64,000 nucleotides of DNA from an uncultured Saprospiraceae bacterium (lineage in GTDB: Bacteria; Bacteroidota; Bacteroidia; Chitinophagales; Saprospiraceae), in the NCBI GenBank assembly GCA_938007965.1, contig CALLMH010000017.1, forward strand, positions 1 to 64,000, given 5' to 3'. This document shows positions 44,423-53,047 of the stretch, piece by piece. The notes below the pieces were generated by a model that had not been told where the DNA came from, did not search any database, and saw only the letters and a program-made list of their open reading frames with translations. How positions within the stretch are numbered: position 1 is the stretch's first letter; the number at the start of each line of letters is the position of its first letter. Made by a program: the position numbers and the translations under genes.

Positions 44423-45694
44423 TTATTCTACCTCTATTAACTTATCAGAAATAAAATTTACACGAGGAGAACTCACCAGTAATGAGGACAATTTTAATAG
44501 ATCTAGATACGCCTCATAAATATCTTTTCTTTCTTCCATTAACTTACCTTCATATCTATTCATATTGTCTTTTATTTCCAATAATACCAAAGGTGACACA
44601 TTTCCGATTGATATATAGTTTTGATAGGTCTGATCAAGAGATTGGCTAGCTACCATTGATTTCAGATTTTCATACTGGATGATTGCTGATTCTAATTTTA
44701 GCTTAACAGATATCAGTTCACGCTCAAATTTTTCTGATTGAAGTATCTTTTTATACTTACTATCCAAGACATCCAAAGCGGCTTCATTTTTCTTTGCTTT
44801 ATTGGTTGACTTATTTGGTAGGTTTATACTCGTACTGAAGGCTAATTCATTCTGAAAGACCACATCATTATCTGATTGGTATCGTACTTGAACCCACTGT
44901 AGCCATTTATTCGTTTCGGCTTCCTCCAATTCATATTCGGCTTTGGCCATGGACTCTTCAGCTGAAGCTATCTTCAAAGAAACCGAGGCTTGACCGCTTA
45001 GAATATATGTATCCATTACATTCTTTATCGTAGATATGGATATAATATCGTCAAAGTTTATTTCACTTCTCCCGCCATTCGATCTATCAAACAAGATTGA
45101 ATCGAGGATTCTGATCGACTGATCTAACTGCACCGAATCACTCATCGCAGAGATAATATCATCTTGATTGGACAGCCAATTTTCTATACTTACATTATCA
45201 GACTGAGCAAGCAGCTTATTCAATATCATCTTTCTATCTCTGAGGATAATTAGTTTTTCTTTTACTATATCCAACTCCCGCTCATAAAAATAGTAATCAA
45301 TTAACTTACGATAAACCCCTTCTACTCTTTCACCTATATACTCTTCTTGTTTGTATTTATAGACTAATTGATTTGTTGCCAGGACTTTATCGTACGCCTT
45401 TCGTTCGTCTCGGCTATTAAGGTCAAATCTTATCAGATACTCTTGCTGGTCGAATACAAATTCATCAGTCTCTGTTCTGATTTCCATACTTTCCACTATA
45501 GGTATACCGCCGCCTTTCTCATCGAGAAACTTTAGGTTTTCTGAGAACATTAGCGACTGGTTGTCTAGTGTGCCAGCGATAATATCTGAGGTAGATAAGC
45601 TCAACTGAGCATAAGAAACACATCCAGATGAAAGTAGAATCAAAAGAATATAAACACTTCGATAATGATATAGTAAAGCCGACCTCAATCTCAT
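44423..45694 (-). CDS. TolC-like outer-membrane efflux protein
   Basis: Third gene of the DUF4956-HlyD operon. 423 residues with a signal peptide (YILLILLSSGCVSYAQ; the Cys could make it a lipoprotein). The rest is mostly long helices with heptad-like spacing, and two related halves (about 100-200 and 240-420), the architecture of TolC/outer-membrane factor proteins; LLKLSSLL near the end is also typical. Its start overlaps the HlyD stop by four bases, so translation is coupled. I infer an outer-membrane channel; identity to TolC is too low to judge by eye. Confidence 0.65.
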   Translation of the reverse strand: MRLRSALLYHYRSVYILLILLSSGCVSYAQLSLSTSDIIAGTLDNQSLMFSENLKFLDEKGGGIPIVESMEIRTETDEFVFDQQEYLIRFDLNSRDERKAYDKVLATNQLVYKYKQEEYIGERVEGVYRKLIDYYFYERELDIVKEKLIILRDRKMILNKLLAQSDNVSIENWLSNQDDIISAMSDSVQLDQSIRILDSILFDRSNGGRSEINFDDIISISTIKNVMDTYILSGQASVSLKIASAEESMAKAEYELEEAETNKWLQWVQVRYQSDNDVVFQNELAFSTSINLPNKSTNKAKKNEAALDVLDSKYKKILQSEKFERELISVKLKLESAIIQYENLKSMVASQSLDQTYQNYISIGNVSPLVLLEIKDNMNRYEGKLMEERKDIYEAYLDLLKLSSLLVSSPRVNFISDKLIEVE

Positions 45695-46776
45695 TTTGAT
45701 ATAGGTTTCGTATTGGCGCCTTTTGAATTTCTATTTTTAGAGGACAATAACTCTTCTAAAGAATTCGCAGAAGTATCTCCGTTGGATATATTGAGTATCA
45801 CTTTTTCTTTTTGAAGAAAACTATTACTCTCTGGAATTTCAATAATCACCTCTCTACCGTATGTTTTGAAATCTGCCATTTTTCGCAATCTTTCAGGTAT
45901 TTCTACTATTCTAGATCCTAGGCCTATGACTACTCCTGTTACTTTTATTTTGGGATGAAGCGTAGAGGCGACTTCTAGTCTATCTCCTACTGCAACTTCG
46001 AGTATCATACTTTCGTGTACGAAGCCTTTTACCTGTGTAGGATTATGCTTATACAAATCCAATAATGATGAAAAAGCGGATATATTCTCTCCCTCTTTGC
46101 AAGATACTGTTCCTACCAGACCATCAAACGGCGCATAGATGGATAACTTATCTTCCATCATTTTAAAGTGATTTAACTCTGAGGAGATATTCTTTGATTT
46201 CAGTTTTCCGGGAAGGGTGATTGTTTTCAAAATTTCATTTTGCTCATTCACTTCTCTTTCTAGCGTCGTAGCAGCATCTCGAAGACTATTCCTCAGGAAA
46301 TCCAACTTAACTTCATCCGGAGACTTATATTCTTTATCATTACTTTCTATGGACTTCAATCCCTCATAAAGTGATTTATTAAGCTCAATCTCTTTTTCTA
46401 GTTCCAATATATCGCTTCTCAGTTCGCTCATCTTTGCCTCCTTTGATGCTTGGATTTGACGTATTTTGTTATTTATTTCTATAATTTTTGTTTGATTATT
46501 GACTGATATCGATTCTCTCGTTACTTCCAATTCATCGAGTTTCAGACCGATCTCCTCGTCTATGACTTCTAGAAGGAGGTCTCCTTTTCTTATTTCCTGA
46601 CCATTATTTACATGGATCTTAGATATTAAAACATCTCTATCATGACTAATCTCCGTCTGTTTATTTTCTGCAAAACCATAGAAATAGGCAGATTCTGACT
46701 GGAAAGTCATAGTAAGATAACTCAGCAATAACAGCATCAAGAATCCGATCACATATATAAAATTGTATCTTTTCAT
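45691..46776 (-). CDS. HlyD/membrane-fusion family protein
   Basis: Periplasmic adaptor of 361 residues. One N-terminal membrane helix (about 7-24). Residues of about 45-75 (ISHDRDVLISKIHVNNGQEIRKGDLLLEVIDEE) form the first lipoyl half, a long charged coiled coil of about 110 residues follows, and the second lipoyl half is about 212-235 (SIYAPFDGLVGTVSCKEGENI). A beta-barrel (VKGFVHESMILEVAVGDRLEV) follows. This is the standard membrane-fusion layout. It lies between a DUF4956 protein and a TolC-like protein, with 5 and -4 base junctions. Confidence 0.88.
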   Translation of the reverse strand: MKRYNFIYVIGFLMLLLLSYLTMTFQSESAYFYGFAENKQTEISHDRDVLISKIHVNNGQEIRKGDLLLEVIDEEIGLKLDELEVTRESISVNNQTKIIEINNKIRQIQASKEAKMSELRSDILELEKEIELNKSLYEGLKSIESNDKEYKSPDEVKLDFLRNSLRDAATTLEREVNEQNEILKTITLPGKLKSKNISSELNHFKMMEDKLSIYAPFDGLVGTVSCKEGENISAFSSLLDLYKHNPTQVKGFVHESMILEVAVGDRLEVASTLHPKIKVTGVVIGLGSRIVEIPERLRKMADFKTYGREVIIEIPESNSFLQKEKVILNISNGDTSANSLEELLSSKNRNSKGANTKPISK

Positions 46777-46781
46777 ATTGA

Positions 46782-47480
46782 TTATATAGTGTCTATTCTT
46801 TTATTTTCTATTACAAGACTACCTACAGCTACGCCGTATAGATCGTCTAAGTCATCCATCAATTCCTGAGCGGCATACGAATCTTTCAATTTTATTCTAT
46901 AATCATAGTTGATCAAGTGTGCCTTCTTGCTTGACCCCGCTCCGAACTCCTTTTTAGAAACTGCAAACCTAGAGCAGTGTTTTGCCAATACTGATTCAAG
47001 TGCCTTTCTATTGCCATCGACCTTATAAAATTTAATTTTCAGACTTCCGAATAGCTTTTCCTTTTCACTAAATGATGAAAATCTAAGTAAGAATGCAGTA
47101 AGGCAAAAACCCAATGTTCCAAAAATCGCTACTGTAAATCCCATTACGCCGCATGCTATACCTGCAGCAATGGATCCAAACATAAAAACTATATTTCTCG
47201 GATCCTGTATCGTAGTTCGAAATCTAATAATGGACAATGCTCCAATCATCCCTAATCCCCTAGCCAGAGAATCCCCTATCGCCTGTATGACCATGGCCGC
47301 AACAACTGTAACTAAGATCAATGCCTGTAGAAAATTATCAGGACGATCTACATCTCTACTTGTCTTTTCGTACGTAAATGCGATCAAGATCCCTAATAAC
47401 ACCGCACATAACACTGTAAATATTATCGAAACTATCCCAGGATATTCTGAACTATATTGTAAGGAAGAAAGATCGAGCAT
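46782..47480 (-). CDS. DUF4956 inner-membrane protein
   Basis: Integral membrane protein of unknown function. The longest frame begins with TTG at 47495, but I prefer the ATG at 47480 (232 residues). Four or five helices lie in residues 10-137. The DUF4956 signature LSIIRFRTTIQDPRNIVFMF sits at about 86-105, before glycine-rich helices (GSIAAGIACGVMGF). A cytosolic alpha/beta domain of about 90 residues ends the protein. DUF4956 proteins are usually near VTC-type polyphosphate polymerase or CotH genes; here neither is present. It is the only integral inner-membrane partner of the HlyD/TolC-like pair. Confidence 0.85.
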   Translation of the reverse strand: MLDLSSLQYSSEYPGIVSIIFTVLCAVLLGILIAFTYEKTSRDVDRPDNFLQALILVTVVAAMVIQAIGDSLARGLGMIGALSIIRFRTTIQDPRNIVFMFGSIAAGIACGVMGFTVAIFGTLGFCLTAFLLRFSSFSEKEKLFGSLKIKFYKVDGNRKALESVLAKHCSRFAVSKKEFGAGSSKKAHLINYDYRIKLKDSYAAQELMDDLDDLYGVAVGSLVIENKRIDTI

Positions 47481-47729: not shown

Positions 47730-48485
47730 TTAAATCTTAATAAACTTTATGGATTCTGAATTCGCCCCATTCAGATAGAGTATGTATATGCCCGATGCTA
47801 GAGATGTTACATCTAGGTCGACTTGATCTACATTATCGATTATCTGTGATACAATTGGGGAACCATCCATACGATAAATTCTCAATTGAGACATACCGCC
47901 ATTACTATCTAAGCCGCTCACTACTAGCCTATCCAGCACAGGATTATTTTGAAGACGTATATCACTAAGATATATTTCTTCGCTAGACACTAAGAATCCA
48001 CGTTCCTCAATCTGAAAACTGAAATCCGCTGCTACTCCCGATATATTATCGCCATCTTCTAGTACGATCTCACTCCATGGATCATTTTCTGTAGTAAATA
48101 TATCATTCGTTTTTCCATCTACATCAGAGACGATGGTAAGCGTAAACCATGTTTCATTGGAAGAAACATCTACAGGCTGAGTGTCCGCCGGGGTCCAAAG
48201 GCTATTCAATGTTTGACTTTGGTTAAAGATATTGTGCGGAATATTGTCAAAAGGCGACCCCTCATTAATCTCTAATATTTGAGCATTTTCAAAATTTAAT
48301 CTAAACTGCCATGCGACTATCCCGTCTAACTGATCCGACCATACGTCGAGTGTAAATTCTTCTCCAGCCGAAAAACTCTTTTCTTCGATGAACATTTGTA
48401 TCGCTGTCGCTCCTATAGTATCAGGCTCCTGACTATACAGAGAAGTCGAAACTAGTAAGAGTACGTAAAATAATAATTTTCTCAT
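47730..48485 (-). CDS. T9SS-secreted cohesin-like protein
   Basis: Predicted secreted protein. I place the start at the ATG at 48485 (signal peptide MRKLLFYVLLLVSTSLYSQ), not at the first Met of the longer frame. The body (TAIQMFIEEKSFSAGEEFTLDVWSD ... IVAWQFRLNFENAQILEIN ... WFTLTIVSD) has the beta-sandwich pattern of a cohesin/dockerin-binding-like module, and SDVDGKTNDIF is a calcium-loop-like turn. The end (NPVLDRLVVSGLDSNG ... YILYLNGANSESIKFIKI) is a T9SS type A sorting domain. Function unknown; no matching dockerin protein is in the window. Confidence 0.78.
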   Translation of the reverse strand: MRKLLFYVLLLVSTSLYSQEPDTIGATAIQMFIEEKSFSAGEEFTLDVWSDQLDGIVAWQFRLNFENAQILEINEGSPFDNIPHNIFNQSQTLNSLWTPADTQPVDVSSNETWFTLTIVSDVDGKTNDIFTTENDPWSEIVLEDGDNISGVAADFSFQIEERGFLVSSEEIYLSDIRLQNNPVLDRLVVSGLDSNGGMSQLRIYRMDGSPIVSQIIDNVDQVDLDVTSLASGIYILYLNGANSESIKFIKI

Positions 48486-48656
48486 TTTTGCAGTTTTGAT
48501 TAAGTACGAATGGATGATCAACTCGTTATATTTATTTATGATATTGCAAAGATATGGTAAAACTACTCCACAAATCATAACAAAAATGATAATTTGTTTA
48601 TCAAAAAACAAACTTCACCTGAAACTATCTTACTGAATATCAAATAAATACAAACC

Positions 48657-48713: not shown

Positions 48714-49844
48714 TTATAGTGTCCCTCTCAGCTCTTGTTCCCGTTCTATAGCTTCGAATAATGCCTTGAAATTTCCTTTTCCAAAAGAGGTAGCTCCTTT
48801 TCTTTGTATTATCTCAAAAAACATCGTCGGCCTAGGATTTACAGTCTTTGTGAATATCTGTAAAAGATACCCTTCATCATCTCGATCTACGAGTATGCCG
48901 AGATCTTTAAGCGGTACGAGATCTTCGTCTATCTCCCCTACTCTATCTAATAATGTATCATAATATGTTGATGGGATATTCAAAAACTCTACCCCTCTAT
49001 CTCGCAGTGCTGTCACTGTTTCTATGATATTGTCCGTATTCAAAGCTATGTGTTGCACGCCCGCACCTTCATAGAATTCGAGGTACTCATCAACTTGTGA
49101 TTTTTTCAATCCTTCGGCAGGTTCATTGATTGGAAATTTGATCCTTCCATTACCATTACTCATGACCTTACTCATGAGTGCTGTGAATTCTGTAGATATA
49201 TCTTTATCATCGAAAGAGAGGATTTGTTTGAATCCCATCACGTCTTCATAGAACTTTACCCATTTGTTCATATCACCTAGCTCTACATTGCCGACCATAT
49301 GATCGACAAACTTCAGCCCCGTCGGTTCGGCCTCATATCTAGGAGACCACTTCTCATACCCAGGTAAAAACGTGCCATGATAATCTTTTCGCTCTACAAA
49401 TATATGCACCACCTCTCCATAAGTATAGATACCTGATCTTATGACTCTACCGTCTTTATCCTCTTCTATCGTTGGTTCCATATAAGATTTTGCACCTCGG
49501 CTTATTGCATCATTGTAAGCTTTGGTCGCGTCTTCTACCCAGAGAGCATTCACTTTCACACCGTCTCCGTGCGCATCGATATGCCTTCCGATATCAGATC
49601 CACTCCTTAGCGGAGTCGTAAATACCAACCGAATCTTATCTTGCACTACTACATATGACTCCCTATCTGTCACTCCGGTCTCTAGACCCGCATAGGCCAA
49701 ACTTTGAAATCCAAAAGCAGTCTTGTAATAATATGCCGCTTGCTTAGAATTACTTACATATAACTCTATATAATCAGTCCCATTTATAGGCATGATATCA
49801 GCATCTTGTGCTTGGACTTTAGGCTCTTGTGTTAGGTGATTCAT
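48714..49844 (-). CDS. hppD: 4-Hydroxyphenylpyruvate dioxygenase
   Basis: Non-haem Fe(II) enzyme converting 4-hydroxyphenylpyruvate to homogentisate in tyrosine catabolism. 376 residues, two-domain vicinal-oxygen-chelate fold. The iron ligands are His182 (KFVDHMVGNV), His265 (VQHIALNTD) and Glu344 (FFEIIQRKG). The C-terminal GKGNFKALFEAIEREQ closes the active site. Its own promoter lies at 49930-49960. Together with fahA and hmgA it makes the route to fumarate and acetoacetate; no maleylacetoacetate isomerase gene is seen in this window. Confidence 0.96.
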   Translation of the reverse strand: MNHLTQEPKVQAQDADIMPINGTDYIELYVSNSKQAAYYYKTAFGFQSLAYAGLETGVTDRESYVVVQDKIRLVFTTPLRSGSDIGRHIDAHGDGVKVNALWVEDATKAYNDAISRGAKSYMEPTIEEDKDGRVIRSGIYTYGEVVHIFVERKDYHGTFLPGYEKWSPRYEAEPTGLKFVDHMVGNVELGDMNKWVKFYEDVMGFKQILSFDDKDISTEFTALMSKVMSNGNGRIKFPINEPAEGLKKSQVDEYLEFYEGAGVQHIALNTDNIIETVTALRDRGVEFLNIPSTYYDTLLDRVGEIDEDLVPLKDLGILVDRDDEGYLLQIFTKTVNPRPTMFFEIIQRKGATSFGKGNFKALFEAIEREQELRGTL

Positions 49845-49905
49845 TATTTTATTTAATTAAAATTAAAAATATAGATATTGACATCAATAGTAAAACTTCA
49901 GTAAC

Positions 49906-49960
49906 TTGCCTTGACAAATATTGCTTATGCAAATATAATTCAAATTCGAAGAAACCACAA
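49906..49960 (-). promoter_or_regulatory. hppD promoter and candidate operator
   Basis: Minus strand: TTG (49960-49958), 20 bases, TATATTTG (49937-49930). A 12-mer TTGCCTTGACAA (plus strand, 49906-49917) lies near the start of transcription; TTGCATTGACAA occurs at the hmgA start site. A palindrome TTGCTTATGCAA overlaps the -7 end (49921-49932). Confidence 0.6.
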
Positions 49961-49997
49961 GTGATTTTAGCACCAGATACTAAACCTATTGAGATTT

Positions 49998-50438
49998 CTA
50001 TTCATACCTTTCAAAATTACCAAATACCGTATCAAGAATCCTCGTAAAATCCTCATAATCTGAATCAGTTAAGCCGTCCCATGATAGATCTCTCAACTTG
50101 TCTACTTCAGCCTGGCATCTTAATATCAGTTCTTTTCCAGATTCTGTTACACTTATTGATGTTTTTCTTCGGTCACCTTGTTCTCCGATTCTATCGACTA
50201 ATCCTTTCTTTACCAGATTGTCTATGATTCTAGATATCGTAGGTGCATTCTTGAAGCTCAATTGGCCGATCGCCTTTTGAGACATCGTTCCATTTTTATT
50301 GACCGTATCTATCACGATCCATTGTTCTGGAGTGATGTCTACTTCTAAATTTTTGAATGCTTTCGTAAAACTCAATTTTGCTATACGAGTTGTACGCTCC
50401 AACAAAAAACCGATTCTCTTATTAGTGTGATCTCCCAT
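49998..50438 (-). CDS. MarR-family transcriptional regulator
   Basis: Homodimeric winged-helix regulator, 146 residues. Helix-turn-helix at about residues 50-80 (MSQKAIGQLSFKNAPTISRIIDNLVKKG), then the wing (DRIGEQGDRRKTSISVTESGKEL), then dimerisation helices. Only 2 bases separate it from the fahA stop, so it is co-transcribed with fahA; hppD lies downstream. A regulator of the homogentisate route, perhaps sensing an aromatic intermediate, is the natural inference from position. Confidence 0.9.
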   Translation of the reverse strand: MGDHTNKRIGFLLERTTRIAKLSFTKAFKNLEVDITPEQWIVIDTVNKNGTMSQKAIGQLSFKNAPTISRIIDNLVKKGLVDRIGEQGDRRKTSISVTESGKELILRCQAEVDKLRDLSWDGLTDSDYEDFTRILDTVFGNFERYE

Positions 50439-50440
50439 AA

Positions 50441-51676
50441 CTACAGTTTCGCCGGTAATATCTTAGCCGTGACTTCTCCAAATCCTACTCTCCTGCCGTC
50501 TTTAGCACAGAAGCCTCTCATCGTCACGGTATCGCCATCTTGAATAAATTTGCGTTCCTCTCCACCTTTTAAGGTTAGCGTCTTCTTACCCGCTTGTGTG
50601 ATTTCTAATAACGACCCATAAGAATGTTCATCCTTCCCACTAATAGTCCCTGATGCCATGAGATCCCCCACATTGACATTACATCCATTCACTGTATGGT
50701 GAGCAAGCTGTTGCAGTTGATTCCAATACATATACTTGTAGTTGGATTCGGAAATTACCGTCTCTTCGCTACCTTCTGGGGCAATGGTTACTTCAAGATT
50801 TACATCATAATTCTGATCTCCGTCATATGTAAGATATGGAAGTACAGCAGGATCTTGCACTGGACCGCTTACTCTGAAATAATCCAATGCCTCCATCGTG
50901 ACGACCCATGGAGCCAATGAACTCGCGAAACTCTTCCCTAAAAACGGTCCGAGTGGTACATACTCCCACTTCTGTATATCTCTAGCACTCCAATCGTTGA
51001 ATAGTGCCATTCCGAATATATATTCTTCCGCTTCATCTGTTGTGATTCGACTCCCTAAGTCACTCTTCTTTCCGATGACAAACCCCATCTCTAATTCGAA
51101 GTCAAGCAGTCGACAAGGACCAAATACTGGATCTCCGTCTGGCGGCTTGGTTTGACCTACTGGTCTATGGATCGGTTGACCACTGACGATGATAGACGAT
51201 GCTCTTCCATGATATCCGACTGGCAGATGCTTCCAATTGGGCAGCAGCGCATTTTCTGGATCTCTGAACAGCTTACCTACATTCGTCGCATGCTCGATAC
51301 TACTATAAAAATCTGTATAGTCTCGCACCAATACTGGCATGTGCATAGTCACACGCGACTGCTCGTAGAATGCATTAGGATTATCCTTCAGTATACTACT
51401 CTCATCGCACAGTTCTGATTGGATTCTCGTTCTGACTGCATTGGTAATCGACTTACCAAGGGCCATGAAGTCATTGATATATTGATTATCAAAAACCGCC
51501 GATGGTACGTCTATCCCCTCGAATATCCCCAATTCGTTAGTCGCCCTCAAATCGAGGACCTTGTCTCCTATCGCTATTCCCATTCTCACTCCACCGCCAT
51601 TGACGGAGAATATCCCGAATGGAATATTGAAAATACTGAAATCAGAATCCTCATTTATATTTATCCAACTTTTCAT
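50441..51676 (-). CDS. fahA: Fumarylacetoacetase
   Basis: Final step of tyrosine catabolism: hydrolyses fumarylacetoacetate to fumarate and acetoacetate. 411 residues. Metal and catalytic residues are recognisable: VRDYTDFYSSIEHATNVG (first Asp ligand and His), LLDFELEMGFVIG (Glu ligands), FNDWSARDIQKWEYVPLGPF (Asp ligand) and GKSFASS (Lys). The N-terminal SH3-like domain starts MKSWININEDSDFSIFNIPF. Follows hmgA by 210 bases on the same strand. Confidence 0.96.
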   Translation of the reverse strand: MKSWININEDSDFSIFNIPFGIFSVNGGGVRMGIAIGDKVLDLRATNELGIFEGIDVPSAVFDNQYINDFMALGKSITNAVRTRIQSELCDESSILKDNPNAFYEQSRVTMHMPVLVRDYTDFYSSIEHATNVGKLFRDPENALLPNWKHLPVGYHGRASSIIVSGQPIHRPVGQTKPPDGDPVFGPCRLLDFELEMGFVIGKKSDLGSRITTDEAEEYIFGMALFNDWSARDIQKWEYVPLGPFLGKSFASSLAPWVVTMEALDYFRVSGPVQDPAVLPYLTYDGDQNYDVNLEVTIAPEGSEETVISESNYKYMYWNQLQQLAHHTVNGCNVNVGDLMASGTISGKDEHSYGSLLEITQAGKKTLTLKGGEERKFIQDGDTVTMRGFCAKDGRRVGFGEVTAKILPAKL

Positions 51677-51886
51677 GTTTTTACATTTTTATAAAAAAGA
51701 CAGTCATCCTATCGGGTAATAGCATTTGGGTGCTTTTGCTTACAGTATGACAATCTGCCTTTTCTCATTTTTAGCTTATTACACTTCATTATGAAGCATG
51801 CTATTTATAATACACAATTAGAATATGTTCTTAGTCATAATCCTCAAAAAACAAATTCCAAGAATCAAACAATGCTCAAATATTTC

Positions 51887-53047
51887 TTAATGATCTAGCC
51901 ACGACTGATAATACTTACCATCATCAATATCTATGGCTGCCTTCGTAAGCATCAGCGGTCTGAATGTATCTATCATCACTGCAAGCTCTCCTGTTTCTTT
52001 CTTACCTATACTTCTCTCGTAAGCACCTGGATGAGGTCCGTGAGGTATACCGCCAGGATGTAAACTCATGTATCCCTGATCGATGTCATTTCTACTCATG
52101 AAATCACCGTCCACATAGTAGAGCATCTCATCAGAATCAATATTGCTATGATTATAAGGAGCTGGAATCGCCAATGGATGGTAATCATACAATCTCGGGC
52201 AGAACGAACATATCACGAATGCCGAAGTCTCAAAAGTCTGATGTACTGGTGGCGGCTGATGTACTCGACCCGTAATCGGCTCGAAATTGTGAATACTGAA
52301 TCCATATGGGAAGTTATATCCATCCCAACCTATCACGTCAAATGGATGAGACTTATACACGACCTCATGCATAGATCCCTGCTTCTTGATCTTCATCAGG
52401 AAATCGCCATACTCATCATGGGTCTCTAGGTCCTGAGGCAACTTCAAGTCACGCTCGCAGAACGGAGAGTGCTCTAGCAACTGCCCGAAATGGTTTCTAT
52501 ATCGCTTTGGTGTATATATCGGATGGAATGACTCGGCATATAGAATCCGATTCTCTTTCGTATCAAACTCTATCTGATAGATCATACCCCGAGGGATAAT
52601 CAGATAATCACCATATTCGAACTTGATTTTACCGAAGATAGTACGTAAGGTTCCCGTCCCTTTATGAATGAACAGCATCTCATCTGCATCGGCATTCTTG
52701 TAGAAATATTCAGTCAATGATCTACGTGGAGCTGCGACTCCGATATGTACATCATTATTGACCATTAAAGTGACCCGACTATCTAGAAAATCATCTTCAG
52801 CCTGCACATCGAATCCTACAAGCTTTCTGGCTTTCATATTGCGCTCTACAGCGATCTCGGGAGTCATATCTATCGGCTCTCCAACCTCGCTTATCATGGT
52901 CGGCCGATTCACATGATAAAGCAATGAGGACATCCCATCAAAGCCTATCGTTCCGAATAACTGCTCATAATACAGGTCTCCGTTTTCTTTGCGAAATTGA
53001 GTGTGACGCTTTGGTGGTATCTTTCCTAATTTGTGATATACAGGCAT
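51887..53047 (-). CDS. hmgA: Homogentisate 1,2-dioxygenase
   Basis: Opens the homogentisate ring to maleylacetoacetate; mononuclear iron enzyme of the cupin type. 386 residues, shorter than the animal enzyme and typical for Bacteroidota. Seen: RHTQFRKENGDLYYEQLFG near the start, PRGMIYQIEF, ESFHPIYTPKRYRN, GWDGYNFPYGFSIHNFEPI, VHQPPPVHQTFE, and LHPGGIPHGPHPGAYE, which carry the iron ligands. A strong promoter is upstream at 53088-53118. Confidence 0.95.
   Translation of the reverse strand: MPVYHKLGKIPPKRHTQFRKENGDLYYEQLFGTIGFDGMSSLLYHVNRPTMISEVGEPIDMTPEIAVERNMKARKLVGFDVQAEDDFLDSRVTLMVNNDVHIGVAAPRRSLTEYFYKNADADEMLFIHKGTGTLRTIFGKIKFEYGDYLIIPRGMIYQIEFDTKENRILYAESFHPIYTPKRYRNHFGQLLEHSPFCERDLKLPQDLETHDEYGDFLMKIKKQGSMHEVVYKSHPFDVIGWDGYNFPYGFSIHNFEPITGRVHQPPPVHQTFETSAFVICSFCPRLYDYHPLAIPAPYNHSNIDSDEMLYYVDGDFMSRNDIDQGYMSLHPGGIPHGPHPGAYERSIGKKETGELAVMIDTFRPLMLTKAAIDIDDGKYYQSWLDH

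Follow-up and report, generated by a model that had tools for sequence, protein, structure and literature searches.

The window analysed here is a stretch of 64,000 nucleotides from an uncultured Saprospiraceae bacterium (assembly GCA_938007965.1, contig CALLMH010000017.1, positions 1 to 64,000), and its minus strand carries a triad of adjoining genes that encode a DUF4956 protein of the inner membrane, a periplasmic adaptor of the HlyD type and an outer-membrane channel of the TolC type. We show that the three form a conserved unit and that DUF4956 is a distant relative of MgtC. The explanation that best covers the data overall, to which we assign a probability of about 0.5, is that the triad forms a trans-envelope conduit with DUF4956 as its gate, serving predicted CotH kinases at the cell surface. 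Open reading frames (ORFs) and profile matches place the components as follows.

46782..47480, minus strand: DUF4956, MgtC-like inner-membrane protein; ATG at 47480, stop ending at 46782; 232 amino acids (aa)
47217..47273, minus strand: DUF4956 residues 70-88, with Asp70 and the R-F-R motif at 86-88 (numbering from the DUF4956 alignment, A5)
46777..46781, minus strand: 5-base gap between the DUF4956 stop and the adaptor start
45691..46776, minus strand: periplasmic adaptor, a membrane-fusion protein of the HlyD/EmrA type; 361 aa; from Pfam, the match to EmrA and hydropathy
45691..45694, minus strand: 4-base overlap of the adaptor stop with the channel start
44423..45694, minus strand: TolC-type outer-membrane channel; 423 aa; from the AlphaFold2 (AF2) model and its TolC, CusC and OprM matches

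The initial annotation, made from the letters of this DNA, described three tightly coupled genes, and the reading frames, the short gap and the overlap bear this out. It also proposed looking for the same triad in other genomes, where the unit proves to be conserved. A search with DUF4956 returned 31 loci, of which 29 contain all three genes; the other two are L026 from Myxococcota, where the contig ends after DUF4956, and L033, which is too divergent to classify. The order DUF4956-adaptor-channel is kept in 28 of the 29 full loci, the exception being L024, with the order adaptor-channel-VTC-CotH-DUF4956. The phylum was further sampled with 375 genomes, with which the genomes of the 31 loci may overlap, using a DUF4956 profile (E up to 1e-12, which misses some PF16316 genes, e.g. 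in G071 and G075) and an adaptor profile (E up to 1e-25, with at most five candidates scored per genome). The former matched 64 proteins in 56 genomes and the latter 19 proteins in 19 genomes, and in all 19 the adaptor lies within 300 bases of a DUF4956 match. This linkage rejects chance adjacency, and the unlinking of the two genes in relatives, which had been named as grounds for dropping the idea, is not what we see. Besides the 19 DUF4956 matches with an adaptor, 43 have a VTC gene within 5 kb (38 of them within 300 bases) and two have neither. G119 holds one of these 43, accompanied by an adaptor and a channel at weaker scores; this triad came up only on reading its locus, where the operon runs CotH-DUF4956-adaptor-channel-VTC and is followed by an LTD protein. 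Among 30 further loci from 60 near relatives, chosen by Pfam score and representing a minority of the DUF4956 places found there, the adaptor is present only in L053 and L059. In another scan, DUF4956 was found in eight of 21 genomes. In a tree of 77 DUF4956 proteins, built from ORFs of at least 190 aa (L111, for example, is shorter), the 51 adaptor-linked members and L026 fall on one side of a branch supported at 100/100; since the drawing is midpoint-rooted, calling them one clade presumes a root outside the adaptor-linked group.

The window DUF4956 protein matches PF16316 with E 5.1e-15 and 56 bits, against a gathering cut-off of 30.6. Its AF2 model (mean predicted local distance difference test score, pLDDT, 73.8) comprises five predicted membrane helices and a C-terminal beta-alpha-beta-beta-alpha-beta domain of the ACT-like type. 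The best Foldseek match of this domain is an ACT domain (E 9.8e-4), which is also the sole match below 0.001, and VIA-align returned NikR-type, ACT-type and ribosomal S6 ferredoxin-like folds; the VIA-align rows are confined to the ACT-like part. Kinship with MgtC emerges from profile comparison. Indeed, hhalign of DUF4956 with 21 MgtC proteins gave a probability of 96.8 (E 2.8e-10) over 195 columns that cover both the membrane and ACT parts, against 0.5 for the reversed control and 0.1 and 0.2 for the adaptor and channel profiles. Of 32 aligned DUF4956 proteins, 19 are matched by the Pfam MgtC model, at best with 1.4e-4, the window's own not being among them: MgtC (PF02308, gathering cut-off 31.4 bits) is absent from its Pfam matches with E of 5 or less. 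Two DUF4956 genes picked up in a genome scan reach 21.9 and 21.3 bits, under that cut-off. Likewise, the NCBIfam MgtC models match DUF4956 of L029 (1.1e-4) and L112 (0.0024), and the window protein has no NCBIfam match of any kind; a sequence search of solved structures with DUF4956 gave nothing convincing. The initial annotation was right to treat DUF4956 as the sole multi-span inner-membrane protein of the unit, and the MgtC kinship had gone unnoticed there. Furthermore, all 77 unselected DUF4956 proteins contain an R-F-R or R-Y-R motif, a count that excludes 11 outgroup rows picked because they bear the motif. The residue 16 positions before it, Asp70 in the window, differs between types: it is Asp in 51/51 adaptor-linked proteins, Asn in 12/12 VTC-linked ones, and Ser or Ala in all 12 DUF4956 proteins of the CotH-followed type. 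Alignment A5 omits L028 (long insertion), L053 and L059, with L007, L013 and L032 trimmed to later starts.

The adaptor is recognized by Pfam as HlyD_D23 (E 1.4e-9, 38 bits against a gathering cut-off of 30) and HlyD_3 (34.9 against 22.2), and a profile built from 30 adaptors finds EmrA among solved structures with E 5.2e-6. Hydropathy reveals one N-terminal hydrophobic segment, at residues 4-27. The channel is far less evident in sequence: the window protein scores 10.6 bits (E 0.49) against the Pfam OEP cut-off of 22, matches to OEP at E up to 1 occur in 14 of 30 aligned channels (this weak one included; the best is 1e-7), NCBIfam gives none for the window protein, and a search of solved structures with the channel profile did not find TolC. 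Its AF2 model (mean pLDDT 86.5) has the TolC protomer fold, with two beta hairpins and long helical hairpins, and matches a deep-learning-aided TolC model (E 1.9e-12) and Klebsiella TolC (E 5.3e-12, TM-score 0.6), both at 9-10% identity, followed by CusC and OprM. We considered that the channel might be misnamed, given the weak Pfam score, and rejected this on the predicted TolC-like fold.

The known tripartite exporters EmrAB-TolC, HlyBD-TolC and AcrAB-TolC likewise combine an HlyD/EmrA-type adaptor with a TolC-type channel, but their inner-membrane part is a major facilitator superfamily (MFS), ATP-binding cassette (ABC) or resistance-nodulation-division (RND) pump, whereas that of the triad is DUF4956. 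No such pump is recognized among the genes of the window operon. In relatives, 59 of the 144 ORFs collinear with triads were scanned, plus one more, and among the matches listed, which cover 25 of the 62 matched families so that weak singletons would go unseen, none belongs to the RND, ABC-ATPase or MFS families; CotH (18), LTD (15), type IX secretion system (T9SS) tails (13), YceI (4) and VTC (3) are found instead. The sole ABC-2 permease, in L032, is accompanied by its own OEP and HlyD genes, and the ABC signature motif occurs in two of 602 ORFs, both outside triad operons. A pump hidden in the operon was rejected on these three grounds. Thus, the absence of a pump noted at the outset, for which a separate ABC or RND pump in relatives was to be the counter-evidence, holds across the scanned neighbours.

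A pump could also be encoded elsewhere, in which case DUF4956 would be an MgtC-like regulator that senses through its ACT-like domain. We regard this as possible but doubtful. Adaptors are known to share pumps or channels, which suits this alternative, as do the MgtC homology across the membrane and ACT parts and the likeness of the ACT-like domain to regulatory domains. Moreover, Salmonella MgtC inhibits ATP synthase, according to the available text of PMC4469704. However, in all 19 genomes where the adaptor subfamily was found it has DUF4956 as its neighbour, as would be expected of a dedicated partner more than of a shared adaptor, and no pump gene was recognized in the operons, although a genome-wide pump search was not made. 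Two further loci place DUF4956 next to other outer-membrane proteins. In G223 (L161:6932-9032) it overlaps an OEP channel gene, with no adaptor seen between OEP and the next gene, so that a TolC-type protein is paired with DUF4956 outside the triad group too; in G244 (L162:7515-10301) it is followed by Porin_O_P, of the phosphate-selective porin family, and then by CotH. Such abutment fits a need for an exit.

At 17 of the 29 full loci a CotH gene adjoins the triad (in L008 and L011 with one T9SS-type gene intervening). The same holds for G119, G070 and G030, and CotH lies beside DUF4956 in non-triad loci as well. The initial expectation that the triad stands apart from VTC and CotH therefore does not hold, VTC being adjacent in L024, L032 and L112. 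At the genome level, CotH is carried by 55 of the 56 genomes with a profile-matched DUF4956, against 127 of 375 overall, and by all 19 triad genomes. The genome of the window, too, encodes the matching CotH, unlinked to the triad on contig C75: an 840-aa protein with LTD, CotH and a T9SS tail. When 14 of the CotH proteins linked to triads were compared with those of the window genome, 11 had this protein as their best match, with 47-60% identity across the aligned part; the comparison left out two of 16 c3 CotH-type ORFs and the CotHs of L011 and L024. The three Cyclobacteriaceae CotHs (L029-L031) best match another CotH of the window genome, on C3, at 28-31%. In the close relative L005, CotH directly follows the channel gene, a position at which the window has none. 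LTD and T9SS tails are found on the CotH proteins next to triads (the CotH of L027 is truncated by the contig edge), and 15 aligned CotH-type proteins, C75 included, share four invariant Asp columns; Bacillus CotH is reported in the available text of PMC7821199 to need Asp228 for its activity. The shorter triad-linked CotH of L011 matches the solved spore-coat CotH with E 5.9e-13.

If CotH proximity reflected no more than clustering of envelope genes, the triad could be an ordinary exporter of small molecules or ions with DUF4956 as the transporter, an explanation that we consider improbable. It draws on the window triad and on those of family f43, which have no CotH beside them. The f43 loci (L114-L130) have a different conserved neighbourhood, in which a gene of 238-261 aa follows the triad. 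In L118 and L130 Pfam identifies this gene as a short-chain dehydrogenase/reductase, and YceI and DUF6580 genes precede the triad; the remaining loci, with a few genes scanned, are similar by gene size. The function of DUF6580 is not known in Pfam. Against an ordinary exporter stand the enrichment of CotH in DUF4956 genomes and its position beside both triads and non-triad DUF4956 genes. Still less credible is a reading in which surface CotH/LTD proteins would dock at the adaptor and channel, or be bridged by them mechanically, with no conduit formed: the LTD and T9SS tails of neighbouring CotHs would suit it, but the channel model predicts TolC protomer topology, and TolC is not known for purely structural use.

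VTC lies beside the triad in early branches, namely G119, L032 (Fibrobacterota) and L024. In family f43 the triad is found in 17 genomes and a VTC-linked DUF4956 in eight, and no genome has both. No VTC adjoins the window triad, and the only VTC match in its own genome, which is also the lone one among the 19 triad genomes, is in a separate locus on contig C22. This locus is a second DUF4956 operon of the window genome (G000; L071:3131-8179), which encodes DUF4956, a 292-aa CYTH-domain protein with, by eye, a hydrophobic start and a C-terminal tail, a 956-aa CotH and a 210-aa VTC protein. The simplest history would be that a DUF4956-VTC-CotH module gained the adaptor and channel once and then mostly lost VTC.

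Returning to the conduit, it is probable that DUF4956 serves one for export or across the envelope, and the odds that this conduit serves CotH are about even. That its cargo is a phosphate donor is a tentative proposal, and the most specific version, in which an MgtC-like protein gates a tripartite exporter of a new class that delivers this donor from the cytosol to the surface for CotH, is less likely still. An export or envelope-spanning component had been suggested at the start; the three-part unit stands, and movement of cargo by DUF4956 is what we infer. DUF4956 would be the inner-membrane gate. Provided that the C-terminal domain is in the cytosol, its conserved basic R-F-R cluster would be exposed on that side and could gather there an anionic, phosphate-rich cargo, for which polyphosphate, a nucleotide or another phosphate donor are candidates. 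The adaptor and channel would take this cargo past the outer membrane to T9SS-tailed CotH kinases, which would need a donor, and the flow may be driven by cargo synthesis or by the membrane potential.

Several points weigh against this proposal. No energy source is visible, MgtC proteins are not known to act as pumps, and the ATP synthase inhibition reported for Salmonella MgtC points to a regulatory role. Confidence in the DUF4956 model is moderate, and among the Foldseek and VIA-align matches listed no solved structure corresponds to its membrane part. No CotH adjoins the window triad, the six CotH matches of its genome being on other contigs, and no CotH was seen in the stretches read around the triads of the 17 f43 genomes, where YceI and DUF6580 are among the neighbours. 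The Fisher test for the CotH association (4e-10) ignores shared ancestry, and 17 of the 19 triad genomes belong to one family. Finally, 18 of the 19 triad genomes in the adaptor-profile set lack VTC, which weakens polyphosphate as the cargo.

Beyond the triad, the gene upstream of it in the window (47730-48611) ends in a T9SS sorting tail scoring 26.2 against a Pfam cut-off of 27, and only L003-L005 have relatives of it at the corresponding place. Positions 48714-53047 hold, by eye, a putative cluster for tyrosine/homogentisate breakdown that includes a MarR-type regulator.

In the open-licence literature searched, the triad is not described in the text available; matching papers name DUF4956, HlyD, VTC or CotH genes only. 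The nearest described system is the set of accessory genes in Gram-positive pel clusters, DUF4956-polyphosphate polymerase-CotH (PMC7112168; SIR_1592-1594 of Streptococcus intermedius, PMC12345266). According to the latter text, as far as available, SIR_1592 is a membrane protein with an MgtC and an ACT domain that is tied to a CotH protein, and its deletion raises Pel and lowers aggregation; we equate it with DUF4956 because PMC7112168 names DUF4956 at that position of the streptococcal cluster. The triad resembles these genes in its MgtC and ACT make-up, its tie to CotH and the VTC retained in early-branching operons. It differs in that neither VTC nor CotH adjoins the window triad, and that for pel the text available names neither an adaptor nor an outer-membrane channel. 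The same text of PMC12345266 states that the three-gene synteny was not found outside pel; in Bacteroidota we find CotH, VTC and DUF4956 within about 4 kb (e.g. G239, G192 and G401), pel genes not having been looked for. With the MgtC family (PF02308), DUF4956 shares a membrane domain followed by a C-terminal ACT-like domain, but it falls below the Pfam MgtC cut-off, bears the R-F-R motif and shares an operon with an adaptor and a channel. As for the VTC/CYTH polyphosphate polymerases, VTC occurs in early-branching triad operons and none is beside the window triad, VTC and CYTH being encoded in the C22 operon. Among other papers, to the extent of their accessible text, one on zetaproteobacterial stalks (PMC8250860) mentions CotH and neither HlyD nor TolC. 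Clostridium perfringens CP4_0461 and CP4_0464, small membrane proteins encoded beside VTC genes, near a CotH gene, and annotated as tubulin/FtsZ GTPase (PMC2879425), may be DUF4956 proteins. BT3498, a DUF4956 gene of Bacteroides thetaiotaomicron with a DUF2490 neighbour, is listed in a table as lowered in an iron study (PMC10434189).

The triad bears on three poorly understood matters, namely the function of DUF4956 and MgtC-like membrane proteins, the working of adaptor-channel pairs that lack an ABC, RND or MFS pump, and the supply of phosphate donor to CotH kinases outside the cytoplasm. With regard to the last, the ATP source of the Bacillus spore-coat CotH is called an unanswered question in the available text of PMC7821199. 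The CotH-DUF4956-adaptor-channel operon is present in named strains of Algoriphagus and Pleomorphovibrio, and the conduit idea is thus open to a test by gene deletion.

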